This document shows positions 1 through 64,000 of a stretch of 64,000 nt of DNA, piece by piece. This DNA comes from Loxodes magnus (Eukaryota > Ciliophora > Karyorelictea > Loxodida > Loxodidae). Position 1 is the first letter of the stretch, and each line of letters opens with the position of its first letter. Under the pieces are notes generated by a model. It was not told the origin of the DNA. It worked only from the letters and a program-made list of their open reading frames with translations, and ran no database searches. The stretch is from positions 1 to 64,000 of the forward strand of contig CAMPDV010000219.1 of NCBI GenBank assembly GCA_946699065.1, in the 5' to 3' direction. Both the position numbers and the translations under genes were made by a program.

Positions 1-1059
1 TCTATTAGTACCTAGTTATTACGAGAAATATTACCTATTAGTACCTAGTTGTTACGAGTAGTAGTACCTATTTGAACATAGTCGTACCTAGTCGTACCTA
101 ATATAAACTAGTCGTACCTAATGGTACCTAGTTATAGAGAGAAAAAGTACCCATTATTACCTAGTCATAACGAGAAATAGTACCTAATAGTACCTAGTAG
201 TAGTACCTAGTTGAAACTTAGTCGTACCAAGTTGTACCGAGAAGTTGTACCTAGTAGAACCAAGTCGTACCTATTAGTACCTAGTTACAAAGAGAAATAT
301 TACCTATTAGTACCTAGTAGTAGTATTTATTTGAACCGTGTCGTACCTAGTTGTACCTAGTCGTACCTAGTCGTACCTAGTCGTACCTAGTTGTACCGAG
401 AAGTTTTACCTAGTAGAACTTAGTCGTACCTAGTTGTACCAAGAAGTTGTACCTAATAGTACATAGTCGTACCTATTAGTACCTAGTTATAACGAGAAAT
501 AGTACTTATTAATACCGTATTCGTACCGAGTAATAGTACCTAGTAGAACTTAGTCGTACCTATTAGTACCTATTTACAAAGAGAAATATTACCTATTAGT
601 ACCTAGTTGTTACGAGTAGTAGTACCTATTTGAACATAGTCGTACCTAGTCGTACCTAATATAAACTAGTCGTACCTAATGGTACCTAGTTATAGAGAGA
701 AAAAGTACCCATTATTACCTAGTCATAACGAGAAATAGTACCTAAACGTACCTAGTAGTAGTACCTAGTTGAACTTAGTCGTACCAAGTTGTACCGAGAA
801 GTTGTACCTAGTAGAACCGAGTCGTACCTATTAGTACCTAGTTACAAAGAGAAATATTACCTATTAGTACCTAGTAGTAGTATTTATTTAAACCGTGTCG
901 TACCTAGTCGTACCTAGTCGTACCTATTCGTACCTAGTTGTACCTAGTTGTACCGAGAAGTTTTACCTAGTAGAACTTAGTCGTACCTAGTTGTACCGAG
1001 TAGCAACATAGTCATATATATTAGTACCTAGTTATTACGAGAAATATTACCTATTAGTA

Positions 1060-1075
1060 ACTCGTTGTTACGAGT
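1060..1075. other. Perfect 6-bp hairpin variant (first of about 37)
   Basis: Stem ACTCGT (1060-1065), loop TGTT, stem ACGAGT (1070-1075). The ordinary form at this unit position reads ACCTAGT before TGTTACGAGT and has no such stem. Other copies start near 2385, 5580, 8231, 9529, 10,788, 13,569, 16,352, 18,870, 27,846, 28,301, 30,049, 31,696, 40,829, 45,959, 50,688, 60,805, 61,807, 62,525 and 63,559. One copy (53,336-53,351) has a mismatch in the right arm. Confidence 0.85.
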
Positions 1076-1400
1076 AGTAGTACCTATTTGAACATAGTCG
1101 TACCTAGTCGTACCTAATATAAACTAGTCGTACCTAATGGTACCTAGTTATAGCGAGAAAAAGTACCCATTATTACCTAGTCATAACGAGAAATAGTACC
1201 TAATAGTACCTAGTAGTACCTAGTTGAACTTAGTCGTACCAAGTTGTACCGAGAAGTTTTACCTAGTAGAACCTAGTCGTACCTATTAGTACCTAGTTAT
1301 AAAGAGAAATATTACCTATTAGTACCTAGTAGTAGTATTATTTGAACCGTGTCGTACCTAGTCGTACCTAGTCGTACCTAGTCGTACCTATTCGTACCTA

Positions 1401-1486
1401 GTTGTACCGAGAAGTTTTACCTAGTAGAACTTAGTCGTACCTAGTTGTACGAGAAGTTTTACCTAGTAGAACTTAGTCGTACCTAG
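1401..1486. repeat. 43-bp local tandem duplication
   Basis: The stretch from GTTGTACCGAG through TTAGTCGTACCTA (10- and 13-bp units, 43 bp in total) is present twice, at 1401 and 1444. The second copy has lost one C (TGTACGAG). The matching place in copy 2 (5923 and 5966) has both copies intact, while copy 3 (near 8575) lacks the 43-bp duplication and has one extra decamer instead. This explains the 496/498 versus 465 bp unit lengths. Confidence 0.85.
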
Positions 1487-2115
1487 TTGTACCGAGTAGC
1501 AACATAGTCGTATATATTAGTACCTAGTTATTACGAGAAATATTACCTATTAGTACCTAGTTGTTACGAGTAGTAGTACCTATTTGAACATAGTCGTACC
1601 TAGTCGTACCTAATATAAACTAGTCGTACCTAATAGTACCTAGTTATAGCGAGAAAAAGTACCCATTATTACCTAGTCATAACGAGTTATAGTACCTAAT
1701 AGTACCTAGTAGTAGTACCTAGTTGAACTTAGTCGTACCAAGTTGTACCGAGAAGTTGTACCTAGTAGAACCAAGTCGTACCTATTAGTACCTAGTTACA
1801 AAGAGAAATATTACCTATTAGTACCTAGTAGTAGTATTTATTTGAACCGTGTCGTACCTAGTCGTACCTAGTCGTACCTAGTCGTACCTATTCGTACCTA
1901 GATGTACCGAGAAGTTTTACCTGGTAGAACTTAGTCGTACCTAGTTGTACCAAGAAGTTTTGCCTAATAGTACGTTGTAGTGTCTATTAGTACCTAGTTA
2001 AAACAAGAAATAGTACTTATTAATACCTATTCGTACCGAGTAATAGTACCTAGTAGAACTTAGTCGTACCTAGTTGTATCTAGTAGAACCTAGTCGTACC
2101 TATTAGTACCTAGTT

Positions 2116-3160
2116 GAAAACGAGAAATATTACCTATTAGTACCTAGTTATAACGAGTAGTAGTACCTAATTGAACCTAGTCGTACCTAGTTGTACCAAG
2201 AAGTTGTACCTAATAGTACATAGTCGTACCTATTAGTACCTAGTTATAACGAGAAATAGTACTTATTAATACCTATTCGTACCGAGTAATAGTACCTAGT
2301 AGAACTTAGTCGTACCTAGTTGTACCGAGTAGCAACATAGTCGTATATATTAGTACCTAGTTATTACGAGAAATATTACCTATTAGTAACTCGTTGTTAC
2401 GAGTAGTAGTACCTATTTGAACATAGTCGTACCTAGTCGTACCTAATATAAACTAGTCGTACCTAATGGTACCTAGTTATAGAGAGAAAAAGTACCCATT
2501 ATTACCTAGTCATAACGAGAAATAGTACCTAATAGTACCTAGTAGTAGTACCTAGTTGAACTTAGTCGTACCAAGTTGTACCGAGAAGTTTTACCTAGTA
2601 GAACCTAGTCGTACCTATTAGTACCTAGTTACAAAGAGAATATTACCTATTAGTACCTAGTAGTATTTATTTGAACCGTGTCGTACCTAGTCGTACCTAG
2701 TCGTACCTAGTCGTACCTATTCGTACCTAGTTGTACCGAGAAGTTTTACCTAGTAGAACTTAGTCGTACCTAGTTGTACCGAGTAGCAACATAGTCATAT
2801 ATATTAGTACCTAGTTATTACGAGAAATATTACCTATTAGTACCTAGTTGTTACGAGTAGTAGTACCTATTTGAACATAGTCGTACCTAGTCGTACCTAA
2901 TATAAACTAGTCGTACCTAAAGTACCTAGTTATAGCGAGAAAAAGTACCTATTATTACCTAGTCATAACGAGAAATAGTACCTAATAGTACCTAGTAGTA
3001 GTACCTAGTTGAACTTAGTCGTACCAAGTTGTACTGAGAAGTTGTACCTAGTAGAACCAAGTCGTACCTATTAGTACCTAGTTACAAAGAGAAATATTAC
3101 CTATTAGTACCTAGTAGTAGTATTTATTTGAACCGTGTCGTACCTAGTCGTACCTAGTCG
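2116..3160. repeat. Extension shared by triplicated copies 1 and 3 (first occurrence)
   Basis: Beyond 2115 the sequence continues to match the region after 9258 at an offset of about 7141-7142, through landmarks 2446 and 2900, including TGTACTGAGAAG at about 3030 (10177 in the partner). Copy 2 instead switches to TTATTACGAG. The match fades around the decamer run near 3150, where this copy has two and the partner three GTACCTAGTC units after GAACCGTG. The 2900 unit has CCTAAAGTACC where others have CCTAATAGTACC, a 2-bp loss. Confidence 0.8.
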
Positions 3161-4418
3161 TACCTATTCGTACCTAGTTGTACCGAGAAGTTTTACCTAG
3201 TAGAACTTAGTCGTACCTAGTTGTACCAAGAAGTTGTACCTAATAGTACGTTGTAAGTGTCTATTAGTACCAAGTCATAACAAGAAATAGTACTTATTAA
3301 TACTATTCGTACCGAGTAATAGTACCTAGTAGAACTTAGTCGTACCTAGTTGTACCGAGTAGCAACATAGTCATATATATTAGTACCTAGTTATTACGAG
3401 AAATATTACCTATTAGTACCTAGTTGTTACGAGTAGTAGTACCTATTTGAACATAGTCGTACCTAGTCGTACCTAATATAAACTAGTCGTACCTAATAGT
3501 ACCTAGTTATAGCGAGAAAAAGTACCCATTATTACCTAGTCATAACGAGAAATAGTACCTAATAGTACCTAGTAGTAGTACCTAGTTGAACTTAGTCGTA
3601 CCAAGTTGTACTGAGAAGTTGTACCTAGTAGAACCAAGTCGTACCTATTAGTACCTAGTTACAAAGAGAAATATTACCTATTAGTACCTAGTAGTAGTAT
3701 TTATTTGAACCGTGTCGTACCTAGTCGTACCTAGTCGTACCTAGTCGTACCTATTCGTACCTAGTTGTACCGAGAAGTTTTACCTAGTAGAACTTAGTCG
3801 TACCTAGTTGTACCAAGAAGTTGTACCTAATAGTACGTTGTAGTGTCTATTAGTCAAGTCATAACAAGAAATAGTACTTATTAATACCTATTCGTACCGA
3901 GTAATAGTACCTAGTAGAACTTAGTCGTACCTAGTTGTATCTAGTAGAACCTAGTCGTATATATTAGTACCTAGTTATTACGAGAAATATTACCTATTAG
4001 TACCTAGTTGTTACGAGTAGTAGTACCTATTTGAACATAGTCCGTACCTAGTCGTACCTAATATAAACTAGTCGTACCTAATGGTACCTAGTTATAGAGA
4101 GAAAAAGTACCCATTATTACCTAGTCATAACGAGAAATAGTACCTAAACGTACCTAGTAGTAGTACCTAGTTGAACTTAGTCGTACCAAGTTGTACCGAG
4201 AAGTTGTACCTAGTAGAACCGAGTCGTACCTATTAGTACCTAGTTACAAAGAGAAATATTACCTATTAGTACCTAGTAGTAGTATTTATTTGAACCGTGT
4301 CGTACCTAGTCGTACCTAGTCGTACCTATTCGTACCTAGTTGTACCTAGTTGTACCGAGAAGTTTTACCTAGTAGAACTTAGTCGTACCTAGTTGTACCT
4401 AGTAGAACTTAGTCGTAC
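3161..4418. repeat. Two ~580-bp satellite units between the triplicated segments
   Basis: Landmarks at 3476 and 4061 are spaced 576 and 585 bp. Both preceding stretches contain the GTACGTTGTAG element followed by CATAACAAG, as in the 586-bp units of region 2. Small private changes are an extra A in GTTGTAAGTGTC near 3248, a 10-bp shortening near 3855 (TATTAGTCAAG) and an extra C in ATAGTCCGTACC near 4040. Confidence 0.8.
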
Positions 4419-4700
4419 CTATTAGTACCTAGTTATTACGAGAAATATTACCTATTAGTACCTAGTTGTTACGAGTAGTAGTACCTATTTGAACATAGTC
4501 GTACCTAGTCGTACCTAATATAAACTAGTCGTACCTAATGGTACCTAGTTATAGAGAGAAAAAGTACCCATTATTACCTAGTCATAACGAGAAATAGTAC
4601 CTAATAGTACCTAGTAGTAGTACCTAGTTGAACTTAGTCGTACCAAGTTGTACCGAGAAGTTGTACCTAGTAGAACCAAGTCGTACCTATTAGTACCTAG

Positions 4701-4912
4701 TTACAAAGAGAAATATTACCTATTAGTACCTAGTAGTAGTATTTATTTGAACCGTGTCGTACCTAGTTGTACCTAGTCGTACCTAGTCGTACCTATTAGT
4801 ACCTAGTTACAAAGAGAAATATTACCTATTAGTACCTAGTAGTAGTATTTATTTGAACCGTGTCGTACCTAGTTGTACCTAGTCGTACCTAGTCGTACCT
4901 AGTCGTACCTAG
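4701..4912. repeat. 106-bp local tandem duplication
   Basis: The stretch starting at TTACAAAGAG (4701) and including GTATTTATTTGAACCGTG is repeated starting at 4807, a 106-bp step (eight 10-bp plus two 13-bp units). It accounts for the 662-bp landmark spacing 4518-5180, against about 556-566 bp in the equivalent places (101-659 and 7266-7832). Confidence 0.88.
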
Positions 4913-5922
4913 TTGTACCGAGAAGTTTTACCTAGTAGAACTTAGTCGTACCTAGTTGTACCAAGAAGTTGTACCTAATAGTACATAGTCGTACCTATTA
5001 GTACCTAGTTATAACGAGAAATAGTACTTATTAATACCTATTCGTACCGAGTAATAGTACCTAGTAGAACTTAGTCGTACCTATTAGTACCTATTTACAA
5101 AGAGAAATATTACCTATTAGTACCTAGTTGTTACGAGTAGTAGTACCTATTTGAACATAGTCGTACCTAGTCGTACCTAATATAAACTAGTCGTACCTAA
5201 TGGTACCTAGTTATAGAGAGAAAAAGTACCCATTATTACCTAGTCATAACGAGAAATAGTACCTAAACGTACCTAGTAGTAGTACCTAGTTGAACTTAGT
5301 CGTACCAAGTTGTACCGAGAAGTTGTACCTAGTAGAACCGAGTCGTACCTATTAGTACCTAGTTACAAAGAGAAATATTACCTATTAGTACCTAGTAGTA
5401 GTATTTATTTAAACCGTGTCGTACCTAGTCGTACCTAGTCGTACCTATTCGTACCTAGTTGTACCTAGTTGTACCGAGAAGTTTTACCTAGTAGAACTTA
5501 GTCGTACCTAGTTGTACCGAGTAGCAACATAGTCATATATATTAGTACCTAGTTATTACGAGAAATATTACCTATTAGTAACTCGTTGTTACGAGTAGTA
5601 GTACCTATTTGAACATAGTCGTACCTAGTCGTACCTAATATAAACTAGTCGTACCTAATGGTACCTAGTTATAGCGAGAAAAAGTACCCATTATTACCTA
5701 GTCATAACGAGAAATAGTACCTAATAGTACCTAGTAGTACCTAGTTGAACTTAGTCGTACCAAGTTGTACCGAGAAGTTTTACCTAGTAGAACCTAGTCG
5801 TACCTATTAGTACCTAGTTATAAAGAGAAATATTACCTATTAGTACCTAGTAGTAGTATTTATTTGAACCGTGTCGTACCTAGTCGTACCTAGTCGTACC
5901 TAGTCGTACCTATTCGTACCTA

Positions 5923-6008
5923 GTTGTACCGAGAAGTTTTACCTAGTAGAACTTAGTCGTACCTAGTTGTACCGAGAAGTTTTACCTAGTAGAACTTAGT
6001 CGTACCTA
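5923..6008. repeat. 43-bp local tandem duplication (intact pair)
   Basis: Two adjacent copies of the 43-bp GTTGTACCGAG...CGTACCTA block, starting at 5923 and 5966. They are the counterpart of 1401-1486 but without the single-base deletion there. Confidence 0.85.
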
Positions 6009-10310: not shown

Positions 10311-10843
10311 TCGTACCTATTCGTACCTAGATGTACCGAGAAGTTTTACCTAGTAGAACTTAGTCGTACCTAGTTGTACCAAGAAGTTTTGCCTAATAGT
10401 ACGTTGTAGTGTCTATTAGTACCTAGTTAAAACAAGAAATAGTACTTATTAATACCTATTCGTACCGAGTAATAGTACCTAGTAGAACTTAGTCGTACCT
10501 ATTAGTACCTAGTTGAAACGAGAAATATTACCTATTAGTACCTAGTTATAACGAGTAGTAGTACCTAATTGAACCTAGTCGTACCTAGTTGTACCAAGAA
10601 GTTGTACCTAATAGTACATAGTCGTACCTATTAGTACCTAGTTATAACGAGAAATAGTACTTATTAATACCTATTCGTACCGAGTAATAGTACCTAGTAG
10701 AACTTAGTCGTACCTAGTTGTACCGAGTAGCAACATAGTCGTATATATTAGTACCTAGTTATTACGAGAAATATTACCTATTAGTAACTCGTTGTTACGA
10801 GTAGTAGTACCTATTTGAACATAGTCGTACCTAGTCGTACCTA

Positions 10844-13626
10844 ATATAAACTAGTCGTACCTAATGGTACCTAGTTATAGAGAGAAAAAGTACCCATTAT
10901 TACCTAGTCATAACGAGAAATAGTACCTAATAGTACCTAGTAGTAGTACCTAGTTGAACTTAGTCGTACCAAGTTGTACCGAGAAGTTTTACCTAGTAGA
11001 ACCTAGTCGTACCTATTAGTACCTAGTTACAAAGAGAAATATTACCTATTAGTACCTAGTAGTATTTATTTGAACCGTGTCGTACCTAGTCGTACCTAGT
11101 CGTACCTAGTCGTACCTATTCGTACCTAGTTGTACCGAGAAGTTTTACCTAGTAGAACTTAGTCGTACCTAGTTGTACCGAGTAGCAACATAGTCATATA
11201 TATTAGTACCTAGTTATTACGAGAAATATTACCTATTAGTACCTAGTTGTTACGAGTAGTAGTACCTATTTGAACATAGTCGTACCTAGTCGTACCTAAT
11301 ATAAACTAGTCGTACCTAATAGTACCTAGTTATAGCGAGAAAAAGTACCCATTATTACCTAGTCATAACGAGAAATAGTACCTAATAGTACCTAGTAGTA
11401 GTACCTAGTTGAACTTAGTCGTACCAAGTTGTACTGAGAAGTTGTACCTAGTAGAACCAAGTCGTACCTATTAGTACCTAGTTACAAAGAGAAATATTAC
11501 CTATTAGTACCTAGTAGTAGTATTTATTTGAACCGTGTCGTACCTAGTCGTACCTAGTCGTACCTAGTCGTACCTATTCGTACCTAGTTGTACCGAGAAG
11601 TTTTACCTAGTAGAACTTAGTCGTACCTAGTTGTACCAAGAAGTTGTACCTAATAGTACGTTGTAGTGTCTATTAGTACCAAGTCATAACAAGAAATAGT
11701 ACTTATTAATACCTATTCGTACCGAGTAATAGTACCTAGTAGAACTTAGTCGTACCTAGTTGTATCTAGTAGAACCTAGTCGTACCTATTAGTACCTAGT
11801 TATTACGAGAAATATTACCTATTAGTACCTAGTTGTTACGAGTAGTAGTACCTATTTGAACATAGTCGTACCTAGTCGTACCTAATATAAACTAGTCGTA
11901 CCTAATGGTACCTAGTTATAGCGAGAAAAAGTACCCATTATTACCTAGTCATAACGAGAAATAGTACCTAATAGTACCTAGTAGAACCTAGTTGAACTTA
12001 GTCGTACCAAGTTGTACCGAGAAGTTTTACCTAGTAGAACCTAGTCGTACCTATTAGTACCTAGTTATAAAGAGAAATATTACCTATTAGTACCTAGTAG
12101 TATTTATTTGAACCGTGTCGTACCTAGTCGTACCTAGTCGTACCTAGTCGTACCTATTCGTACCTAGTTGTACCGAGAAGTTTTACCTAGTAGAACTTAG
12201 TCGTACCTAGTTGTACCGAGTAGCAACATAGTCATATATATTAGTACCTAGTTATTACGAGAAATATTACCTATTAGTACCTAGTTGTTACGAGTAGTAG
12301 TACCTATTTGAACATAGTCGTACCTAGTCGTACCTAATATAAACTAGTCGTACCTAATAGTACCTAGTTATAGCGAGAAAAAGTACCCATTATTACCTAG
12401 TCATAACGAGAAATAGTACCTAATAGTACCTAGTAGTAGTACCTAGTTGAACTTAGTCGTACCAAGTTGTACCGAGAAGTTGTACCTAGTAGAACCAAGT
12501 CGTACCTATTAGTACCTAGTTACAAAGAGAAATATTACCTATTAGTACCTAGTAGTAGTATTTATTTGAACCGTGTCGTACCTAGTCGTACCTAGTCGTA
12601 CCTAGTCGTACCTATTCGTACCTAGTTGTACCGAGAAGTTTTACCTAGTAGAACTTAGTCGTACCTAGTTGTACCGAGTAGCAACATAGTCATATATATT
12701 AGTACCTAGTTATTACGAGAAATATTACCTATTAGTACCTAGTTGTTACGAGTAGTAGTACCTATTTGAACATAGTCGTACCTAGTCGTACCTAATATAA
12801 ACTAGTCGTACCTAATAGTACCTAGTTATAGCGAGAAAAAGTACCCATTATTACCTAGTCATAACGAGAAATAGTACCTAATAGTACCTATTAGTAGTAC
12901 CTAGTTGAACTTAGTCGTACCAAGTTGTACCGAGAAGTTGTACCTAGTAGAACCAAGTCGTACCTATTAGTACCTAGTTACAAAGAGAAATATTACCTAT
13001 TAGTACCTAGTAGTAGTATTTATTTGAACCGTGTCGTACCTAGTCGTACCTAGTCGTACCTAGTCGTACCTATTCGTACCTAGATGTACCGAGAAGTTTT
13101 ACCTAGTAGAACTTAGTCGTACCTAGTTGTACCAAGAAGTTTTGCCTAATAGTACGTTGTAGTGTCTATTAGTACCTAGTTAAAACAAGAAATAGTACTT
13201 ATTAATACCTATTCGTACCGAGTAATAGTACCTAGTAGAACTTAGTCGTACCTAGTTGTATCTAGTAGAACCTAGTCGTACCTATTAGTACCTAGTTGAA
13301 ACGAGAAATATTACCTATTAGTACCTAGTTATAACGAGTAGTAGTACCTAATTGAACCTAGTCGTACCTAGTTGTACCAAGAAGTTGTACCTAATAGTAC
13401 ATAGTCGTACCTATTAGTACCTAGTTATAACGAGAAATAGTACTTATTAATACCTATTCGTACCGAGTAATAGTACCTAGTAGAACTTAGTCGTACCTAG
13501 TTGTACCGAGTAGCAACATAGTCGTATATATTAGTACCTAGTTATTACGAGAAATATTACCTATTAGTAACTCGTTGTTACGAGTAGTAGTACCTATTTG
13601 AACATAGTCGTACCTAGTCGTACCTA
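10844..13626. repeat. 2,783-bp HOR, copy A
   Basis: Runs landmark to landmark as 455, 586, 452, 458 and 832 bp. Places checked against copy B (+2783) were identical, including distinctive variants: AACTCGTTGTTACGAG at the start, CCAAGTCATAACAAG after GTACGTTGTAG (about 11,690), CCTAGTAGAACCTAG (about 11,980) and CCTATTAGTAG (about 12,888). Confidence 0.92.
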
Positions 13627-16409
13627 ATATAAACTAGTCGTACCTAATGGTACCTAGTTATAGAGAGAAAAAGTACCCATTATTACCTAGTCATAACGAG
13701 AAATAGTACCTAATAGTACCTAGTAGTAGTACCTAGTTGAACTTAGTCGTACCAAGTTGTACCGAGAAGTTTTACCTAGTAGAACCTAGTCGTACCTATT
13801 AGTACCTAGTTACAAAGAGAAATATTACCTATTAGTACCTAGTAGTATTTATTTGAACCGTGTCGTACCTAGTCGTACCTAGTCGTACCTAGTCGTACCT
13901 ATTCGTACCTAGTTGTACCGAGAAGTTTTACCTAGTAGAACTTAGTCGTACCTAGTTGTACCGAGTAGCAACATAGTCATATATATTAGTACCTAGTTAT
14001 TACGAGAAATATTACCTATTAGTACCTAGTTGTTACGAGTAGTAGTACCTATTTGAACATAGTCGTACCTAGTCGTACCTAATATAAACTAGTCGTACCT
14101 AATAGTACCTAGTTATAGCGAGAAAAAGTACCCATTATTACCTAGTCATAACGAGAAATAGTACCTAATAGTACCTAGTAGTAGTACCTAGTTGAACTTA
14201 GTCGTACCAAGTTGTACTGAGAAGTTGTACCTAGTAGAACCAAGTCGTACCTATTAGTACCTAGTTACAAAGAGAAATATTACCTATTAGTACCTAGTAG
14301 TAGTATTTATTTGAACCGTGTCGTACCTAGTCGTACCTAGTCGTACCTAGTCGTACCTATTCGTACCTAGTTGTACCGAGAAGTTTTACCTAGTAGAACT
14401 TAGTCGTACCTAGTTGTACCAAGAAGTTGTACCTAATAGTACGTTGTAGTGTCTATTAGTACCAAGTCATAACAAGAAATAGTACTTATTAATACCTATT
14501 CGTACCGAGTAATAGTACCTAGTAGAACTTAGTCGTACCTAGTTGTATCTAGTAGAACCTAGTCGTACCTATTAGTACCTAGTTATTACGAGAAATATTA
14601 CCTATTAGTACCTAGTTGTTACGAGTAGTAGTACCTATTTGAACATAGTCGTACCTAGTCGTACCTAATATAAACTAGTCGTACCTAATGGTACCTAGTT
14701 ATAGCGAGAAAAAGTACCCATTATTACCTAGTCATAACGAGAAATAGTACCTAATAGTACCTAGTAGAACCTAGTTGAACTTAGTCGTACCAAGTTGTAC
14801 CGAGAAGTTTTACCTAGTAGAACCTAGTCGTACCTATTAGTACCTAGTTATAAAGAGAAATATTACCTATTAGTACCTAGTAGTATTTATTTGAACCGTG
14901 TCGTACCTAGTCGTACCTAGTCGTACCTAGTCGTACCTATTCGTACCTAGTTGTACCGAGAAGTTTTACCTAGTAGAACTTAGTCGTACCTAGTTGTACC
15001 GAGTAGCAACATAGTCATATATATTAGTACCTAGTTATTACGAGAAATATTACCTATTAGTACCTAGTTGTTACGAGTAGTAGTACCTATTTGAACATAG
15101 TCGTACCTAGTCGTACCTAATATAAACTAGTCGTACCTAATAGTACCTAGTTATAGCGAGAAAAAGTACCCATTATTACCTAGTCATAACGAGAAATAGT
15201 ACCTAATAGTACCTAGTAGTAGTACCTAGTTGAACTTAGTCGTACCAAGTTGTACCGAGAAGTTGTACCTAGTAGAACCAAGTCGTACCTATTAGTACCT
15301 AGTTACAAAGAGAAATATTACCTATTAGTACCTAGTAGTAGTATTTATTTGAACCGTGTCGTACCTAGTCGTACCTAGTCGTACCTAGTCGTACCTATTC
15401 GTACCTAGTTGTACCGAGAAGTTTTACCTAGTAGAACTTAGTCGTACCTAGTTGTACCGAGTAGCAACATAGTCATATATATTAGTACCTAGTTATTACG
15501 AGAAATATTACCTATTAGTACCTAGTTGTTACGAGTAGTAGTACCTATTTGAACATAGTCGTACCTAGTCGTACCTAATATAAACTAGTCGTACCTAATA
15601 GTACCTAGTTATAGCGAGAAAAAGTACCCATTATTACCTAGTCATAACGAGAAATAGTACCTAATAGTACCTATTAGTAGTACCTAGTTGAACTTAGTCG
15701 TACCAAGTTGTACCGAGAAGTTGTACCTAGTAGAACCAAGTCGTACCTATTAGTACCTAGTTACAAAGAGAAATATTACCTATTAGTACCTAGTAGTAGT
15801 ATTTATTTGAACCGTGTCGTACCTAGTCGTACCTAGTCGTACCTAGTCGTACCTATTCGTACCTAGATGTACCGAGAAGTTTTACCTAGTAGAACTTAGT
15901 CGTACCTAGTTGTACCAAGAAGTTTTGCCTAATAGTACGTTGTAGTGTCTATTAGTACCTAGTTAAAACAAGAAATAGTACTTATTAATACCTATTCGTA
16001 CCGAGTAATAGTACCTAGTAGAACTTAGTCGTACCTAGTTGTATCTAGTAGAACCTAGTCGTACCTATTAGTACCTAGTTGAAACGAGAAATATTACCTA
16101 TTAGTACCTAGTTATAACGAGTAGTAGTACCTAATTGAACCTAGTCGTACCTAGTTGTACCAAGAAGTTGTACCTAATAGTACATAGTCGTACCTATTAG
16201 TACCTAGTTATAACGAGAAATAGTACTTATTAATACCTATTCGTACCGAGTAATAGTACCTAGTAGAACTTAGTCGTACCTAGTTGTACCGAGTAGCAAC
16301 ATAGTCGTATATATTAGTACCTAGTTATTACGAGAAATATTACCTATTAGTAACTCGTTGTTACGAGTAGTAGTACCTATTTGAACATAGTCGTACCTAG
16401 TCGTACCTA
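13627..16409. repeat. 2,783-bp HOR, copy B
   Basis: Same length to the base as copy A and identical wherever I compared the two, so the duplication looks recent or well homogenised. It ends in the 832-bp unit with TTGCCTAATAG, TAAAACAAG, TGTATCTAG and TTGAAACGAG. Confidence 0.92.
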
Positions 16410-29506: not shown

Positions 29507-31258
29507 ATATAAACTAGTCGTACCTAATAGTACCTAGTTATAGCGAGAAAAAGTACCCATTATTACCTAGTCATAACGAGAAATAGTACCTAATAGTACC
29601 TAGTAGTAGTACCTAGTTGAACTTAGTCGTACCAAGTTGTACCGAGAAGTTGTACCTAGTAGAACCAAGTCGTACCTATTAGTACCTAGTTACAAAGAGA
29701 AATATTACCTATTAGTACCTAGTAGTAGTATTTATTTGAACCGTGTCGTACCTAGTCGTACCTATTTGTACCTAGTTGAAACGAGAAATATTACCTATTA
29801 GTACCTAGTTGTAACGAGTAGTAGTACCTAATTGAACCTAGTCGTACCTAGTTGTACCAAGAAGTTGTACCTAATAGTACATAGTCGTACCTATTAGTAC
29901 ATAGTTATAACGAGAAATAGTACTTATTAATACCTATTCGTACCGATTAATAGTACCTAGTAGAACTTAGTCGTACCTAGTTGTACCGAGTAGCAACATA
30001 GTCGTATAAATTAGTACCTAGTTATTACGAGAAATATTACCTATTAGTAACTCGTTGTTACGAGTAGTAGTACCTATTTGAACATAGTCGTACCTAGTCG
30101 TACCTAATATAAACTAGTCGTACCTAATGGTACCTAGTTATAGAGAGAAAAAGTACCCATTATTACCTAGTCATAACGAGAAATAGTACCTAAACGTACC
30201 TAGTAGTAGTACCTAGTTGAACTTAGTCGTACCAAGTTGTACCGAGAAGTTTTACCTAGTAGAACCTAGTCGTACCTATTAGTACCTAGTTACAAAGAGA
30301 AATATTACCTATTAGTACCTAGTAGTATTTATTTGAACCGTGTCGTACCTAGTCGTACCTAGTCGTACCTATTCGTACCTAGTTGTACCGAGAAGTTTTA
30401 CCTAGTAGAACTTAGTCGTACCTAGTTGTACCAAGAAGTTGTACCTAATAGTACGTTGTAGTGTCTATTAGTACCAAGTCATAACAAGAAATAGTACTTA
30501 TTAATACCTATTCGTACCGAGTAATAGTACCTAGTAGAACTTAGTCGTACCTAGTTGTATCTAGTAGAACCTAGTCGTACCTATTAGTACCTAGTTGAAA
30601 CGAGAAATATTACCTATTAGTACCTAGTTATAACGAGTAGTAGTACCTAATTGAACCTAGTCGTACCTAGTTGTACCAAGAAGTTGTACCTAATAGTACA
30701 TAGTCGTACCTATTAGTACATAGTTATAACGAGAAATAGTACTTATTAATACAATTCGCACCGAGTAATAGTACCTAGTAGAACTTAGTCGTACCTAGTT
30801 GTACCGAGTAGCAACATAGTCGTATATATTAGTACCTAGTTATTACGAGAAATATTACCTATTAGTAACTCGTTGTTACGAGTAGTAGTACCTATTTGAA
30901 CATAGTCGTACCTAGTCGTACCTAATATAAACTAGTCGTACCTAATGGTACCTAGTTATAGAGAGAAAAAGTACCCATTATTACCTAGTCATAACGAGAA
31001 ATAGTACCTAATAGTACCTAGTAGTAGTACCTAGTTGAACTTAGTCGTACCAAGTTGTACCGAGAAGTTTTACCTAGTAGAACCTAGTCGTACCTATTAG
31101 TACCTAGTTACAAAGAGAAATATTACCTATTAGTACCTAGTAGTATTTATTTGAACCGTGTCGTACCTAGTCGTACCTAGTCGTACCTAGTCGTACCTAT
31201 TCGTACCTAGTTGTACCGAGAAGTTTTACCTAGTAGAACTTAGTCGTACCTAGTTGTA

Positions 31259-31601
31259 CCAAGAAGTTGTACCTAATAGTACGTTGTAGTGTCTATTAGT
31301 ACCAAGTCATAACAAGAAATAGTACTTATTAATACCTATTCGTACCGAGTAATAGTACCTAGTAGAACTTAGTCGTACCTAGTTGTATCTAGTAGAACCT
31401 AGTCGTACCTATTAGTACCTAGTTGAAACGAGAAATATTACCTATTAGTACCTAGTTATAACGAGTAGTAGTACCTAATTGAACCTAGTCGTACTTAGTT
31501 GTACCAAGAAGTTGTACCTAATAGTACATAGTCGTACCTATTAGTACATAGTTATAACGAGAAATAGTACTTATTAATACCTATTCGTACCGATTAATAG
31601 T
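31259..31601. repeat. Satellite spacer between the two 3.05 kb copies
   Basis: About 340 bp of the 829-bp unit type: CCAAGAAGTTG, GTACGTTGTAG, CATAACAAG, TGTATCTAG, TTGAAACGAG, then the variant GTACTTAGTTG (about 31,493) and CCGATTAATAG. The same module order occurs at about 35,119-35,460 and 35,950-36,290. Confidence 0.8.
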
Positions 31602-32468
31602 ACCTAGTAGAACTTAGTCGTACCTAGTTGTACCGAGTAGCAACATAGTCGTATAAATTAGTACCTAGTTATTACGAGAAATATTACCTATTAGTAACTC
31701 GTTGTTACGAGTAGTAGTACCTATTTGAACATAGTCGTACCTAGTCGTACCTAATATAAACTAGTCGTACCTAATGGTACCTAGTTATAGAGAGAAAAAG
31801 TACCCATTATTACCTAGTCATAACGAGAAATAGTACCTAATAGTACCTAGTAGTAGTACCTAGTTGAACTTAGTCGTACCAAGTTGTACCGAGAAGTTGT
31901 ACCTAGTAGAACCTAGTCGTACCTATTAGTACCTAGTTACAAAGAGAAATATTACCTATTAGTACCTAGTAGTAGTATTTATTTGAACCGTGTCGTACCT
32001 AGTCGTACCTAGTCGTACCTAGTCGTACCTATTCGTACCTAGTTGTACCGAGAAGTTTTACCTAGTAGAACTTAGTCGTACCTAGTTGTACCAAGAAGTT
32101 GTACCTAATAGTACGTTGTAGTGTCTATTAGTACCAAGTCATAACAAGAAATAGTACTTATTAATACCTATTCGTACCGAGTAATAGTACTTAGTAGAAC
32201 TTAGTCGTACCTAGTTGTATCTAGTAGAACCTAGTCGTACCTATTAGTACCTAGTTATTACGAGAAATATTACCTATTAGTACCTAGTTATAACGAGTAG
32301 TAGTACTTAATTGAACCTAGTCGTATCTAGTTGTACCAAGAAGTTGTACCTAATAGTACATAGTCATATATATTAGTACCTAGTTATTACGAGAAATATT
32401 ACCTATTAGTACCTAGTTGTTACGAGTAGTAGTACCTATTTGAACATAGTCGTACCTAGTCGTACCTA

Positions 32469-32900
32469 ATATAAACTAGTCGTACCTAATTGTACCTAGT
32501 TATAGCGAGAAAAAGTACCTATTAGTAACTCGTTGTTACGAGTAGTAGTACCTATTTGAACATAGTCGTACCTAGTCGTACCGAGAAGTTTTACCTAGTA
32601 GAACCTAGTCGTACCTATTAGTACCTAGTTACAAAGAGAAATATTACCTATTAGTATCTAGTAGTATTTATTTGAGCCGTGTCGTACCTAGTCGTACCTA
32701 GTCGTACCTAGTCGTACCTATTCGTACCTAGTTGTACCGAGAAGTTTTACCTAGTAGAACTTAGTCGTACCATGTTGTACCGAGTAGCAGCATAGTCATA
32801 TATATTAGTACCTAGTTATTACGAGAAATATTACCTATTAGTACCTAGTTGTTACGAGTAGTAGTACCTATTTGAACATAGTCGTACCTAGTCGTACCTA
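32469..32900. repeat. 432-bp chimeric unit, duplicated copy
   Basis: Exact counterpart of 29075-29506: a landmark, then a truncated second unit head with the AACTCGTTGTTACGAG hairpin near 32,525 and no ATAAACTAGT. It confirms that the fusion was copied as part of the larger duplication. Confidence 0.85.
32655..32795. repeat. Marked 141-bp block, occurrence 2
   Basis: Same four linked variants as 29261-29401, at +3,394 bp. Confidence 0.88.
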
Positions 32901-34783
32901 ATATAAACTAGTCGTACCTAATAGTACCTAGTTATAGCGAGAAAAAGTACCCATTATTACCTAGTCATAACGAGAAATAGTACCTAATAGTACCTAGTAG
33001 TAGTACCTAGTTGAACTTAGTCGTACCAAGTTGTACCGAGAAGTTGTACCTAGTAGAACCAAGTCGTACCTATTAGTACCTAGTTACAAAGAGAAATATT
33101 ACCTATTAGTACCTAGTAGTAGTATTTATTTGAACCGTGTCGTACCTAGTCGTACCTATTTGTACCTAGTTGAAACGAGAAATATTACCTATTAGTACCT
33201 AGTTGTAACGAGTAGTAGTACCTAATTGAACCTAGTCGTACCTAGTTGTACCAAGAAGTTGTACCTAATAGTACATAGTCGTACCTATTAGTACATAGTT
33301 ATAACGAGAAATAGTACTTATTAATACCTATTCGTACCGATTAATAGTACCTAGTAGAACTTAGTCGTACCTAGTTGTACCGAGTAGCAACATAGTCGTA
33401 TAAATTAGTACCTAGTTATTACGAGAAATATTACCTATTAGTAACTCGTTGTTACGAGTAGTAGTACCTATTTGAACATAGTCGTACCTAGTCGTACCTA
33501 ATATAAACTAGTCGTACCTAATGGTACCTAGTTATAGAGAGAAAAAGTACCCATTATTACCTAGTCATAACGAGAAATAGTACCTAAACGTACCTAGTAG
33601 TAGTACCTAGTTGAACTTAGTCGTACCAAGTTGTACCGAGAAGTTTTACCTAGTAGAACCTAGTCGTACCTATTAGTACCTAGTTACAAAGAGAAATATT
33701 ACCTATTAGTACCTAGTAGTATTTATTTGAACCGTGTCGTACCTAGTCGTACCTAGTCGTACCTATTCGTACCTAGTTGTACCGAGAAGTTTTACCTAGT
33801 AGAACTTAGTCGTACCTAGTTGTACCAAGAAGTTGTACCTAATAGTACGTTGTAGTGTCTATTAGTACCAAGTCATAACAAGAAATAGTACTTATTAATA
33901 CCTATTCGTACCGAGTAATAGTACCTAGTAGAACTTAGTCGTACCTAGTTGTATCTAGTAGAACCTAGTCGTACCTATTAGTACCTAGTTGAAACGAGAA
34001 ATATTACCTATTAGTACCTAGTTATAACGAGTAGTAGTACCTAATTGAACCTAGTCGTACCTAGTTGTACCAAGAAGTTGTACCTAATAGTACATAGTCG
34101 TACCTATTAGTACATAGTTATAACGAGAAATAGTACTTATTAATACAATTCGCACCGAGTAATAGTACCTAGTAGAACTTAGTCGTACCTAGTTGTACCG
34201 AGTAGCAACATAGTCGTATATATTAGTACCTAGTTATTACGAGAAATATTACCTATTAGTAACTCGTTGTTACGAGTAGTAGTACCTATTTGAACATAGT
34301 CGTACCTAGTCGTACCTAATATAAACTAGTCGTACCTAATGGTACCTAGTTATAGAGAGAAAAAGTACCCATTATTACCTAGTCATAACGAGAAATAGTA
34401 CCTAATAGTACCTAGTAGTAGTACCTAGTTGAACTTAGTCGTACCAAGTTGTACCGAGAAGTTTTACCTAGTAGAACCTAGTCGTACCTATTAGTACCTA
34501 GTTACAAAGAGAAATATTACCTATTAGTACCTAGTAGTATTTATTTGAACCGTGTCGTACCTAGTCGTACCTAGTCGTACCTAGTCGTACCTAGTCGTAC
34601 CTATTCGTACCTAGTTGTACCGAGAAGTTTTACATAGTAGAACTTAGTCGTACCTAGTTGTACCGAGTAGCAACATAGTCATATATATTAGTACCTAGTT
34701 ATTACGAGAAATATTACCTATTAGTACCTAGTTGTTACGAGTAGTAGTACCTATTTGAACATAGTCGTACCTAGTCGTACCTA

Positions 34784-48178: not shown

Positions 48179-48213
48179 CGAGTAGCAACATAGTCGTATA
48201 TATTAGTACCTAG

Positions 48214-50114: not shown

Positions 50115-50231
50115 TTATAACGAGAAATAGTAATTATTAATACATATTCGTACCGAGTAATAGTACCTAGTAGAACTTAGTCGTACCTAGTTGTACCGAG
50201 TAGCAACATAGTCGTATATATTAGTACCTAG
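50115..50231. repeat. 117-bp TAATTATTAA module, occurrence 2
   Basis: Same 117-bp module, here with TACATATTCG in place of TACCTATTCG. Confidence 0.85.
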
Positions 50232-50316
50232 TTATTACGAGAAATATTACCTATTAGTACCTAGTTGTTACGAGTAGTAGTACCTATTTGAACATAGTCG
50301 TACCTAGTCGTACCTA

Positions 50317-56963: not shown

Positions 56964-58756
56964 ATAGTACATAGTCGTACCTATTAGTACCTAGTTATAA
57001 CGAGAAATAGTACCCATTAGTACCTATTCGTACCGAGTAATAGTACCTAGTAGAACTTAGTCGTACCTAGTTGTACCTAGTAGAACCTAGTCGTATATAT
57101 TAGTACCTAGTTATTACGAGAAATAGTAATTATTAATACCTATTCGTACCGAGTAATAGTACCTAGTAGAACTTAGTCGTACCTAGTTGTACCGAGTAGC
57201 AACATGGTCGTATATATTAGTATCTAGTTATTACGAGAAATATTACCTATTAGTACCTAGTTGTTACGAGTAGTAGTACCTATTTGAACATAGTCGTACC
57301 TAGTCGTACCTAATATAAACTAGTCGTACCTAATAGTACCTAGTTATAGCGAGAAAAAGTACCCATTATTACCTAGTCATAACGAGAAATAGTACCTAAT
57401 AGTACCTAGTAGTAGTACCTAGTGGAACTTAGTCGTACCAAGTTGTACCGAGAAGTTTTACCTAGTAGAACTTAGTCGTACCAAGTTGTACCGAGAAGTT
57501 TTACCTAGTAGAACCATGTCGTACCTATTAGTACCTAGTTACAAAGAGAAATATTACCTATTAGTACCTAGTAGTAGTATTTATTTGAACCGTGTCGTAC
57601 CTAGTCGTACCTAGTCGTACCTATTCGTACATAGTTGTACCGAGAAGTTTTACCTAGTAGAACTTAGTCGTACCTAGTTGTACCAAGAAGTTGTACCTAA
57701 TAGTATATAGTCGTACCTATTAGTACCTAGTTATAACGAGAAATAGTACCCATTAGTACCTATTCGTACCGAGTAATATTAACTAGTAGTACTTAGTCGT
57801 ACCTAGTTGTACCGAGTAGCAACATAGTCGTATATATTAGTACCTAGTTATAACGAGAAATATTACCTATTTGTAACTCGTTGTTACGAGTAGTAGTACC
57901 TATTTGAACATAGTCGTACCTAGTCGTATCTAATATAAACTAGTCGTACCTAATAGTACCTAGTTATAGCGAGAAAAAGTACCCATTATTACCTAGTCAT
58001 AACGAGAAATAGTACCTAATAGTACCTAGTAGTAGTACCTAGTGGAACTTAGTCGTACCAAGTTGTACCGAGAAGTTTTACCTAGTAGAACTTAGTCGTA
58101 CCAAGTTGTACCGAGAAGTTTTACCTAGTAGAACTTAGTCGTACCTAGTTGTACCAAGAAATTGTACCTAATAGTACATAGTCGTACCTATTAGTACATA
58201 GTTATAACGAGAAATAGTACTTATTAATACCTATTCGTACCGAGTAATAGTACCTAGTAGAACTTAGTCGTACCTAGTTGTACCTAGTAGAACCTAGTCG
58301 TACCTATTTGTACCTAGTTGAAACGAGAAATATTACCTATTAGTACCTAGTTGTAACGAGTAGTAGTACCTAATTGAACCTAGTCGTACCTAGTTGTACC
58401 AAGAAGTTGTACCTAATAGTACGTTGTAGTGCCTATTAGTACCTAGTTATAACGAGAAAAAGTACCCATTAGTACCTATTCGTACCGAGTAATAGTACCT
58501 AGTAGAACTTAGTCGTACCTAGTTGTACCGAGTATCAACATAGTCGTATATATTAGTACCTAGTTATTACGAGAAATATTACCTATTAGTACCTAGTTGT
58601 TACGAGTAGTAGTACCTATTTGAACATAGTCGTACCTAGTCGTACCTAATATAAACTAGTCGTACCTAATAGTACCTAGTTATAGCGAGAAAAAGTACCC
58701 ATTATTACCTAGTCATAACGAGAAATAGTACCTAATAGTACCTAGTAGTAGTACCT
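56827..58756. repeat. ~1.9 kb duplicated segment, copy 2
   Basis: Partner of 50951-52880 at +5,876 bp. It differs by TAGTATCTAGTTATTACG near 57,220, ATTAGTACC for ATTGGTACC near 57,563, and CGTATCTAATATAAAC just before the landmark at 57,933. Confidence 0.83.
57111..57227. repeat. 117-bp TAATTATTAA module, occurrence 5
   Basis: Same module with CAACATGGTCG, 5,876 bp after occurrence 3. Confidence 0.85.
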
Positions 58757-59524
58757 AGTTGAACTTAGTCGTACCAAGTTGTACCGAGAAGTTTTACCTA
58801 GTAGAACCAAGTCGTACCTATTTGTACCTAGTTGAAATGAGAAATATTACCTATTAGTACCTAGTTGTAACGAGTAGTAGTACCTAATTGAACCTAGTCG
58901 TACCTAGTTGTACCAAGAAGTTGTACCTAGTAGAACATAGTCGTACCTATTATTACCTAGTCATAACGAGAAATAGTACTTATTAATACCTATTCGTACC
59001 GAGTAATAGTACCTAGTAGAACTTAGTCGTACCTAGTTGTACCTAGTAGAACCTAGTCGTACCTATTTGTACCTAGTTGAAACGAGAAATATTACCTATT
59101 AGTACCTAGTTGTAACGAGTAGTAGTACCTAATTGAACCTAGTCGTACCTAGTTGTACCAAGAAGTTGTACCTAATAGTACATAGTCGTACCTATTAGTA
59201 CCTAGTTATAACGACAAAAAGTACCCATTAGTACCTATTCGTACCGAGTAATAGTACCTAGTAGAACTTAGTCGTACCTAGTTGTACCGAGTATCAACAT
59301 AGTCGTATATATTAGTACCTAGTTATTACGAGAAATAGTAATTATTAATACCTATTCGTACCGAGTAATAGTACCTAGTAGAACTTAGTCGTACCTAGTT
59401 GTACCGAGTAGCAACATAGTCGTATATATTAGTACCTAGTTATTACGAGAAATATTACCTATTAGTACCTAGTTGTTACGAGTAGTAGTACCTATTTGAA
59501 CATAGTCGTACCTAGTCGTACCTA
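57313..59524. repeat. 2,212-bp HOR (620+716+876 bp), copy 1
   Basis: Spacing series 620-716-876, starting at 57313 and repeating as 620-716 from 59525. The same series lies at 52773-54984 (offset 4,540 bp), so this block exists at least twice with intervening sequence before its tandem repetition. Confidence 0.87.
59323..59439. repeat. 117-bp TAATTATTAA module, occurrence 6
   Basis: Same module but with CAACATAGTCG rather than CATGGTCG. Last occurrence in the window. Confidence 0.85.
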
Positions 59525-60144
59525 ATATAAACTAGTCGTACCTAATAGTACCTAGTTATAGCGAGAAAAAGTACCCATTATTACCTAGTCATAACGAGAA
59601 ATAGTACCTAATAGTACCTAGTAGTAGTACCTAGTGGAACTTAGTCGTACCAAGTTGTACCGAGAAGTTTTACCTAGTAGAACTTAGTCGTACCAAGTTG
59701 TACCGAGAAGTTTTACCTAGTAGAACCAAGTCGTACCTATTAGTACCTAGTTACAAAGAGAAATATTACCTATTAGTACCTAGTAGTAGTATTTATTTGA
59801 ACCGTGTCGTACCTAGTCGTACCTAGTCGTACCTATTCGTACATAGTTGTACCGAGAAGTTTTACCTAGTAGAACTTAGTCGTACCTAGTTGTACCAAGA
59901 AGTTGTACCTAATAGTATATAGTCGTACCTATTAGTACCTAGTTATAACGAGAAATAGTACCCATTAGTACCTATTCGTACCGAGTAATATTAACTAGTA
60001 GTACTTAGTCGTACCTAGTTGTACCGAGTATCAACATAGTCGTATATATTAGTACCTAGTTATTACGAGAAATATTACCTATTTGTAACTCGTTGTTACG
60101 AGTAGTAGTACCTATTTGAACATAGTCGTACCTAGTCGTACCTA

Positions 60145-61864
60145 ATATAAACTAGTCGTACCTAATAGTACCTAGTTATAGCGAGAAAAAGTACCCATTA
60201 TTACCTAGTCATAACGAGAAATAGTACCTAATAGTACCTAGTAGTAGTACCTAGTGGAACTTAGTCGTACCAAGTTGTACCGAGAAGTTTTACCTAGTAG
60301 AACTTAGTCGTACCAAGTTGTACCGAGAAGTTTTACCTAGTAGAACTTAGTCGTACCTAGTTGTACCAAGAAATTGTACCTAATAGTACATAGTCGTACC
60401 TATTAGTACATAGTTATAACGAGAAATAGTACTTATTAATACCTATTCGTACCGAGTAATAGTACCTAGTAGAACTTAGTCGTACCTAGTTGTACCTAGT
60501 AGAACCTAGTCGCACCTATTTGTACCTAGTTGAAACGAGAAATATTACCTATTAGTACCTAGTTGTAACGAGTAGTAGTACCTAATTGAACCTAGTCGTA
60601 CCTAGTTGTACCAAGAAGTTGTACCTAATAGTACATAGTCGTACCTATTAGTACATAGTTATAACGACAAAAAGTACCCATTAGTACCTATTCGTACCGA
60701 GTAATAGTACCTAGTAGAACTTAGTCGTACCTAGTTGTACCGAGTATCAACATAGTCGTATATATTAGTACCTAGTTATTACGAGAAATATTACCTATTA
60801 GTAACTCGTTGTTACGAGTAGTAGTACCTATTTGAACATAGTCGTACCTAGTCGTACCTAATATAAACTAGTCGTACCTAATAGTACCTAGTTATAGCGA
60901 GAAAAAGTACCCATTATTACCTAGTCATAACGAGAAATAGTACCTAATAGTACCTAGTAGTAGTACCTAGTTGAACTTAGTCGTACCAAGTTGTACCGAG
61001 AAGTTTTACCTAGTAGAACCTAGTCGTACCTATTTGTACCTAGTTGAAATGAGAAATATTACCTATTAGTACCTAGTTGTAACGAGTAGTAGTACCTAAT
61101 TGAACCTAGTCGTACCTAGTTGTACCAAGAAGTTGTACCTAGTAGAACATAGTCGTACCTATTAGTACCTAGTTATAACGAGAAATAGTGCTTATTAATA
61201 CCTATTCGTACCGAGAAGTTTTACCTAGTAGAACCTAGTCGTACCTATTAGTACCTAGTAGAACCTAGTCGTACCTATTTGTACCTAGTTGAAATGAGAA
61301 ATATTACCTATTAGTACCTAGTTGTAACGAGTAGTAGTACCTAATTGAACCTAGTCGTACCTAGTTGTACCAAGAAGTTGTACCTAGTAGAACATAGTCG
61401 TACCTATTAGTACCTAGTTATAACGAGAAATAGTACTTATTAATACCTATTCGTACCGAGTAATAGTACCTAGTAGAACTTAGTCGTACCTAGTTGTACC
61501 TAGTAGAACCTAGTCGTACCTATTTGTACCTAGTTGAAACGAGAAATATTACCTATTAGTACCTAGTTGTAACGAGTAGTAGTACCTAATTGAACCTAGT
61601 CGTACCTAGTTGTACCAAGAAGTTGTACCTAATAGTACATAGTCGTACCTATTAGTACCTAGTTATAACGACAAAAAGTACCCATTAGTACCTATTCGTA
61701 CCGAGTAATAGTACCTAGTAGAACTTAGTCGTACCTAGTTGTACCGAGTATCAACATAGTCGTATATATTAGTACCTAGTTATTACGAGAAATATTACCT
61801 ATTAGTAACTCGTTGTTACGAGTAGTAGTACCTATTTGAACATAGTCGTACCTAGTCGTACCTA
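60145..61864. repeat. 1,720-bp HOR (716+1004 bp), copy 1
   Basis: Recurs at 61865 with shared rare variants TCGCACC, AATAGTGCTTATT (61,190 and 62,910, exactly 1,720 bp apart) and AGAAATTGTACC. This is the newest-looking HOR in region 7. Confidence 0.9.
61044..61778. repeat. 245-bp tandem triplication
   Basis: TTGAAATGAG at 61,044, TTGAAATGAG at 61,289 and TTGAAACGAG at 61,534 mark three tandem blocks 245 bp apart. The first has AGTGCTTATT followed by CCGAGAAGTTTTACC, while the others have the usual CCGAGTAATAG module, so the first two blocks are not identical. Confidence 0.86.
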
Positions 61865-63617
61865 ATATAAACTAGTCGTACCTAATAGTACCTAGTTATA
61901 GCGAGAAAAAGTACCCATTATTACCTAGTCATAACGAGAAATAGTACCTAATAGTACCTAGTAGTAGTACCTAGTGGAACTTAGTCGTACCAAGTTGTAC
62001 CGAGAAGTTTTACCTAGTAGAACTTAGTCGTACCAAGTTGTACCGAGAAGTTTTACCTAGTAGAACTTAGTCGTACCTAGTTGTACCAAGAAATTGTACC
62101 TAATAGTACATAGTCGTACCTATTAGTACATAGTTATAACGAGAAATAGTACTTATTAATACCTATTCGTACCGAGTAATAGTACCTAGTAGAACTTAGT
62201 CGTACCTAGTTGTACCTAGTAGAACCTAGTCGCACCTATTTGTACCTAGTTGAAACGAGAAATATTACCTATTAGTACCTAGTTGTAACGAGTAGTAGTA
62301 CCTAATTGAACCTAGTCGTACCTAGTTGTACCAAGAAGTTGTACCTAATAGTACATAGTCGTACCTATTAGTACCTAGTTATAACGAGAAAAAGTACCCA
62401 TTAGTACCTATTCGTACCGAGTAATAGTACCTAGTAGAACTTAGTCGTACCTAGTTGTACCGAGTATCAACATAGTCGTATATATTAGTACCTAGTTATT
62501 ACGAGAAATATTACCTATTAGTAACTCGTTGTTACGAGTAGTAGTACCTATTTGAACATAGTCGTACCTAGTCGTACCTAATATAAACTAGTCGTACCTA
62601 ATAGTACCTAGTTATAGCGAGAAAAAGTACCCATTATTACCTAGTCATAACGAGAAATAGTACCTAATAGTACCTAGTAGTAGTACCTAGTTGAACTTAG
62701 TCGTACCAAGTTGTACCGAGAAGTTTTACCTAGTAGAACCTAGTCGTACCTATTTGTACCTAGTTGAAATGAGAAATATTACCTATTAGTACCTAGTTGT
62801 AACGAGTAGTAGTACCTAATTGAACCTAGTCGTACCTAGTTGTACCAAGAAGTTGTACCTAGTAGAACATAGTCGTACCTATTAGTACCTAGTTATAACG
62901 AGAAATAGTGCTTATTAATACCTATTCGTACCGAGAAGTTTTACCTAGTAGAACCTAGTCGTACCTATTAGTACCTAGTAGAACCTAGTCGTACCTATTT
63001 GTACCTAGTTGAAATGAGAAATATTACCTATTAGTACCTAGTTGTAACGAGTAGTAGTACCTAATTGAACCTAGTCGTACCTAGTTGTACCAAGAAGTTG
63101 TACCTAGTAGAACATAGTCGTACCTATTAGTACCTAGTTATAACGAGAAATAGTACTTATTAATACCTATTCGTACCGAGTAATAGTACCTAGTAGAACT
63201 TAGTCGTACCTAGTTGTACCTAGTAGAACCTAGTCGTACCTATTTGTACCTAGTTGAAACGAGAAATATTACCTATTTGTACCTAGTTGAAACGAGAAAT
63301 ATTACCTATTAGTACCTAGTTGTAACGAGTAGTAGTACCTAATTGAACCTAGTCGTACCTAGTTGTACCAAGAAGTTGTACCTAATAGTACATAGTCGTA
63401 CCTATTAGTACCTAGTTATAACGACAAAAAGTACCCATTAGTACCTATTCGTACCGAGTAATAGTACCTAGTAGAACTTAGTCGTACCTAGTTGTACCGA
63501 GTATCAACATAGTCGTATATATTAGTACCTAGTTATTACGAGAAATATTACCTATTAGTAACTCGTTGTTACGAGTAGTAGTACCTATTTGAACATAGTC
63601 GTACCTAGTCGTACCTA
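61865..63617. repeat. 1,720-bp HOR, copy 2 (1,753 bp with a 33-bp insertion)
   Basis: Landmarks 61865, 62581 and 63618 (716 and 1037). It matches copy 1 at +1,720 bp. The extra 33 bp is the tandem duplication at 63,241. Three 245-bp blocks are at 62,764, 63,009 and 63,254. Confidence 0.9.
63241..63306. repeat. 33-bp local tandem duplication (10+10+13)
   Basis: TATTTGTACC followed by TAGTTGAAACGAGAAATATTACC occurs twice, at 63,241 and 63,274. It is one full 33-bp module and accounts for 1037 versus 1004 bp. Confidence 0.92.
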
Positions 63618-64000
63618 ATATAAACTAGTCGTACCTAATAGTACCTAGTTATAGCGAGAAAAAGTACCCATTATTACCTAGTCATAACGAGAAATAGTAC
63701 CTAATAGTACCTAGTAGTAGTTACTAGTTGAACTTAGTCGTACCAAGTTGTACCGAGAAGTTTTACCTAGTAGAACCTAGTCGTACCTATTTGTACCTAG
63801 TTGAAATGAGAAATATTACCTATTAGTACCTAGTTATAACGAGAAATAGTGCTTATTAATACCTATTCGTACCGAGAAGTTTTACCTAGTAGAACCTAGT
63901 CGTACCTATTAGTACCTAGTAGAACCTAGTCGTACCTATTTGTACCTAGTTGAAACGAGAAATATTACCTATTAGTACCTAGTTGTAACGAGTAGTAGTA
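63618..64000. repeat. Partial unit at the right edge with a 96-bp internal deletion
   Basis: The landmark unit resembles 62581 (AGTTGAAC type, with TAGTTACTAG replacing TAGTACCTAG at 63,718). AATAGTGCTTATT comes 96 bp earlier than in 62581. The lost stretch ran between two occurrences of CCTATTAGTACCTAGTT and equals seven 10-bp and two 13-bp units. The array continues past 64,000. Confidence 0.85.

Follow-up and report, generated by a model that had tools for sequence, protein, structure and literature searches.

A tandem array of 10-bp and 13-bp words, probably noncoding satellite DNA, in the ciliate Loxodes magnus

Our study deals with a 64,000-nucleotide stretch of the Loxodes magnus genome, referred to here as the window, which comprises positions 1-64000 of a 504,722-bp contig (CAMPDV010000219.1, C219) in an assembly of 705,730,643 bases and 7843 contigs. 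The whole window (1..64000) was found to be a tandem array of 10-bp and 13-bp words in a single orientation, as seen from segmentation with a hidden Markov model (HMM) and from a k-mer comparison of the strands, and it is truncated by the contig start at position 1; this feature and all those located below are on the forward (+) strand. The best explanation, with a probability of about 85%, is that the window belongs to an array of noncoding satellite DNA that expanded through slippage, unequal exchange and the duplication of blocks, that is, a known kind of DNA with unusually clear short words. It offers a clean and readable case of layered satellite growth, from the decamer through its 3-bp variant and a phrase of 33-53 bp to the kilobase block, in a karyorelict ciliate; tandem repeats make up roughly one-third of its published assembly.

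Word lengths of the array

The main segmentation, a cyclic 10-state HMM with free insertions and deletions (indels), divided the window into 6008 words, of which 4623 are 10 bp long, 1272 are 13 bp, 100 are 11 bp and 13 have other lengths, the mean being 10.65 bp. Relative to the decamer, 1273 of the 1377 insertion runs are of 3 bp, 101 of 1 bp, two of 2 bp and one of 4 bp. A second, in-register two-class segmentation, in which 10 and 13 bp are assumed as the main classes, gave 6007 words (4543 of ten, 1353 of thirteen, 82 of eight, 20 of eleven and 9 of other lengths). Exact GTAC occurs 3454 times, and 3342 of the 3453 spacings between copies can be composed from tens and thirteens (1426 of 10 bp, 621 of 20 bp, 521 of 33 bp, 328 of 13 bp, 327 of 23 bp and smaller classes besides); the spacings off these sums are 95 of 31 bp and 16 others. 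Autocorrelation peaks were obtained at lags 10 (0.59), 33 (0.556), 43 (0.543), 20 (0.514), 53 (0.512) and 23 (0.46); there is also a local maximum at 13 (0.38), and the value at lag 11 is 0.19 against a chance level of 0.27. The GTAC spacings, the autocorrelation and both segmentations agree on the two word lengths that the initial annotation had proposed; its expected peaks at 10, 33, 43 and 13 bp were recovered, and the lengths are bimodal rather than continuously spread.

The same lengths were seen in array DNA outside the training set (contig positions 64,001-70,280), where 427 of 585 words are of ten, 139 of thirteen and 19 of other lengths. Unique flank DNA segmented likewise gave spread word lengths. 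An order-1 Markov control distributed its lengths evenly over 6-18 bp, and an order-3 control showed weak peaks at 7, 10 and 13 bp (377, 308 and 196 of 1811 words) because local words are preserved in it. Local composition alone hints at the word lengths, but with far lower regularity than the array. Two other free-length segmentations cut many 23-bp pairs as 7+16 or 17+6, and boundaries within a pair therefore depend on the model. Length-specific full-word models were overfitted, splitting the 10+13 pairs elsewhere, and were left unused for counts.

Typical words, taken from the sequence and its word counts, are the commonest decamer GTACCTAGTT (8..17; 902 copies) and the 13-bp word ATTACGAGAAATA (18..30; 100 copies). 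The rare 11-bp piece of the earlier description is present, but it belongs to a 21-bp composite with about 80 copies, in which a 13-mer is followed by a decamer without 2 bp, leaving an 8-bp remnant. The example at 993..1013 reads GTACCGAGTAGCA + ACATAGTC (13 + 8), and these two parts have 79 and 71 copies, respectively.

Word order and block structure

The order of the words is far from random, yet not fixed. In the in-register segmentation, the steps from one 13-mer to the next (n = 1356) are of 33 bp in 359 cases, 43 bp in 292, 53 bp in 198, 83 bp in 176, 23 bp in 154 and 41 bp in 81, besides rarer others. Adjacent 13-mers are absent from this segmentation (0 pairs against 307 in shuffles) and very few in the free-indel one (9 against 313), in which decamer runs of two make up 548 of 1386 runs. 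Amplification of phrases that contain a single 13-mer would lead to such avoidance.

Among short periods, the held-out score per base was 0.588 for 10 bp, 0.299 for 11 bp, 0.27 for 12 bp, 0.379 for 13 bp and 0.48 for 21 bp, and basic units of 11, 12, 13 or 21 bp were accordingly ruled out. Longer periods gave 0.702 (33 bp), 0.742 (43 bp), 0.736 (53 bp), 0.774 (86 bp), 0.848 (116 bp) and 0.798 (149 bp), values which are to be read with the larger number of parameters in the longer models and the common block ancestry of the held-out and training parts. A 33-bp period was rejected as the explanation of the array, being outscored by 43, 53, 86, 96 and 116 bp and others. No single period of 11 or 33 bp, which the initial annotation had named as possible competitors, thus explains the array better: 11 bp scores below 10 bp, and 33 bp below 43, 86 and 116 bp. 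Its 33-bp mid-level period stands as the commonest 13-mer step and fails as the best period, 43 bp being ahead in the held-out score. The fixed order over 64 kb that it described could not be upheld, as steps of 33, 43, 53, 83 and 23 bp are mixed and blocks of several sizes occur.

Above the phrase, kilobase blocks of several sizes recur without a single unit. Exact repeats of at least 200 bp cover 94.4% of the window, those of at least 400 bp 76.9% and those of at least 1600 bp 22.0%. Near-identical copies of 100-word samples were found at many distances (2783, 3394, 2519, 2171 and 4540 bp, and others). One block duplication with a lag of 2783 bp lies at 10644..16300, where 100-word samples near 10.6, 12.8 and 14.9 kb each agree in every word (1.00) with a copy at that distance, and a second one with a lag of 3394 bp lies at 29791..34000, also with identical 100-word samples; both are seen in the exact-repeat lags. 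A regular higher-order repeat of the alpha-satellite type was not found, many lags being present and none of them dominant across the window.

Extent and class of the array

The array begins at the first base of the contig and extends beyond the window to about position 70,280 (far edge in locus L001), after decaying, so that its total length is above 70 kb (about 70.3 kb of the contig). Beyond the edge there is unique DNA of about 25% GC, free of the 10/13 repeat. Word scores in the final 800 bp before the edge are about 1.0 bits per base, against 1.2-1.3 elsewhere in the array. The edges of satellite arrays are expected to be less homogenised than their interiors, and the degraded last 800 bp fit the mechanism of growth proposed below. 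Of the window's 1396 distinct 10-mers only 6 also occur in its reverse complement, and of its 2491 16-mers none does. The array has several properties of satellite DNA: it is long, head-to-tail and in one orientation, its units are related, and homogenisation and block duplication are found within it. Judged from its sequence, it probably has no conserved coding frame, as open frames lie on both strands and overlap, and the 21-bp composite breaks the frame.

Relation of the 13-mer to the decamer and proposed origin

The decamer consensus is approximately GTACCTAGTA and that of the 13-mer is GTACCGAGAAGTA. Deleting bases 6-8 converts 541 of the 1353 13-mers exactly to a decamer of the array, while the fraction matching decamers after base removal from shuffled 13-mers is 0.0; this bears out the earlier suggestion that the 13-mer is a decamer with a 3-bp insertion, though not at a unique place. 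Deletion of bases 9-11 gives 341 exact matches, of 11-13 gives 325 and of 1-3 none. The triplet at 6-8 is GAG, TAG or AAG in 1328 of the 1353 13-mers, and the one at 9-11 is AAA, TAG, AAG or TAA in 1352. The two triplets resemble each other and the TAG/TAT/TAA/AAG of the decamers, which fits duplication of a triplet followed by substitutions. The 38 types of 13-mer form a single network at two or fewer substitutions. The 13-mer is therefore best regarded as probably a decamer with an internal triplet, a view kept conditional because the place of insertion is ambiguous and the 13-mers have diverged.

The array may have started as a tandem array of an ancestral decamer close to GTACCTAGTA. One lineage of it would have gained one extra NAG-like triplet, probably by slippage, giving the 13-bp word, and short phrases of one 13-mer and a few decamers would then have been amplified in tandem. 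Unequal exchange, or some comparable process, may later have duplicated kilobase blocks of phrases in repeated, irregular rounds. Unequal exchange is an established motor of satellite growth. The two lengths would then be old alleles fixed by amplification; this explanation needs no function, and the array probably has none that is specific to its sequence.

Some observations weigh against this account. At one or fewer substitutions the 13-mer types split into 8 components, and several insertion events are therefore possible. Scored with the decamer model, the 13-mers reach their highest mean when bases 9-11 are removed (2.13 bits against 1.6 for 6-8), both values lie far below that of true decamers (12.6 bits), and once bases 6-8 are taken out 517 of the 1353 13-mers are still separated from the nearest decamer by 3-4 substitutions. 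Further, 13 of the 42 word types present once are off-length, against 6 of the 99 types with several copies (Fisher p 0.0002). This excess among singletons could, with low odds, reflect a filter against odd lengths. Several single-copy odd-length words look, by eye, like homopolymer indels, which are typical errors of long-read assembly.

Alternative explanations

A function in packing was considered in two forms. The array may be a helically phased satellite, in which 13-bp words act as spacers correcting the drift of the 10-bp words and hold them on one helix face for nucleosome or protein packing. The mean word length is in favour of this, since per 100 words it stays within 10.58-10.73 bp (standard deviation 0.034 against 0.128 in shuffles), and at 10.65 bp the coherence of phase across 150 bp is 0.774 against 0.553 in shuffles. 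The WW, SS and AA/TT steps also peak at 10.7 bp, whereas TA steps show no such peak, unlike WW and SS, and coherence is lower at 10.5 bp than at 10.65 bp. When whole decamer runs are shuffled, the local evenness is retained (residual 1.156 bp against 1.161 observed), and the run lengths by themselves are therefore enough to account for it. There is a negative correlation between one decamer run and the next (-0.25 for 282 distinct pairs, with 0 of 5000 permutations as low), but it weakens with more duplicate removal, reaching -0.19 (89 pairs with p 0.03 and 55 with p 0.08), and is -0.13 over 36 distinct length pairs. As few ancestors lie behind all blocks, there is little independent evidence, and helical phasing appears improbable. 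Even less credible is a selected length code, in which 13-mer spacing would hold the pitch near 10.65 bp with the words on one helix face over a nucleosome, and odd lengths would arise and be kept from spreading.

An origin of the pattern in the assembly, with misassembled repeats accounting for the order of the blocks or for some of the array itself, is highly unlikely. A long read greatly exceeds the 10/13-bp words, the phrases of 33-53 bp and the blocks of several hundred bp; the part open to such error is the arrangement of kilobase blocks at large scale alone, and identical word lengths recur in array DNA outside the window. Least probable of all is a protein-coding repeat. In its favour, TAA and TAG encode glutamine in the ciliate, both 10 and 13 leave a remainder of 1 on division by 3, so that the frame is restored after three words, and translation of the window with table 6 gives 92 open frames of at least 400 amino acids, the longest being of 1860. 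These frames lie on both strands, overlapping in several frames, because TGA and TCA are rare in the words; the reading of each word passes successively through all three frames, and the roughly 80 copies of the 21-bp composite break the remainder rule. A noncoding satellite grown by amplification and duplication remains the preferred reading. As a practical matter, since open frames in the array reach 1860 amino acids under the TAA/TAG = Gln code, gene finders using that code could predict false genes in it.

Flank and database comparisons

Under the same code, four open frames of the flank were compared with profiles. One of these, with 15 reassigned codons, fell short of the curated cut-off in its match to leucine-rich repeat models (E 0.002-0.003), and the remaining three gave no convincing profile match; the frames are weakly in keeping with the ciliate code. 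The random sample consisted of 40 1-kb stretches of the same assembly (40 of 80 sites drawn), interpolated within about the first 70% of the contigs, and the 10/13 array was present in none of the 40. Positions 1-2000 of the window had no match in a plasmid collection, and no exact 25-bp match was found in viral contigs or genome contigs, from all of which the source genome may be left out. A literature search with four decamer strings gave no satellite-themed title among the matches listed.

Comparison with other satellites

As described in the sections of PMC3218096 drawn upon, mouse major (gamma) satellite consists of 58+60+58+58 bp units with subunits of 28 and 30 bp, forming a 234-bp tetramer. 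It is like the 10/13 array in being tandem with two interleaved unit lengths, and it is built on subunits of 7-11 bp with larger higher-order units (PMC3218096). Its 234-bp unit is regular, whereas the 10/13 array has no single higher-order length and keeps words that can be made out at 10 and 13 bp; the likeness noted here is one of structure. The Drosophila decamer satellites Prodsat AATAACATAG and a D. simulans 10-mer, listed as centromeric in the part of PMC8122249 consulted, share the 10-bp basic unit and the long arrays. They differ from the 10/13 array in their letters, and that part of the source gives no second word length (PMC8122249).

According to the part of PMC11441545 used here, the Loxodes magnus macronuclear assembly has 706 Mbp, of which 231 Mbp are tandem repeats, and the nucleosome spacing in Loxodes is 160 bp. 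In our random stretches, 14,162 of 40,000 bases (35%) are tandem repeat, against the published 33%. Seventeen other tandem loci were checked for unit spacing and three clearly mix two lengths, namely L020 (79/84), L021 (102/91) and L048 (87/80). L045 does so weakly (100 seven times, 82 twice and 85 once), and most remaining loci are uniform or nearly so, e.g. L023, L028, L031, L032, L039, L046 and L057. The final 4722 bases of the contig (L005; 500,001-504,722) are a satellite of 12% GC with a 37-bp unit, inside which one 11-bp motif returns at 21 and 16 bp. L005, L020, L021 and L048 are like the 10/13 array in mixing two lengths (in L005 as motif spacings within the unit) and unlike it in having units of 37-180 bp and other sequences. 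Two unit lengths are thus not rare in this genome and not the rule, and the view that a stable mix of two lengths is unusual has to be given up, since L020, L021 and L048 mix lengths and the mouse major satellite does too (in the sections of PMC3218096 cited above).

The terms 'satellite' and 'centromer' are absent from the main text of PMC11441545, and Loxodes satellites look little described there. Fourteen of the 40 random stretches (among L026-L065) are more than 70% tandem repeat, with commonest units, judged from periods alone, of about 80 bp, one-half of the reported 160-bp distance between nucleosomes. Two of the 40 stretches (L039 and L057) contain a 123-bp satellite with a GC content of 43%, well above the 25% of the genome, and in L039 the counts of GTACC are equal on both strands.
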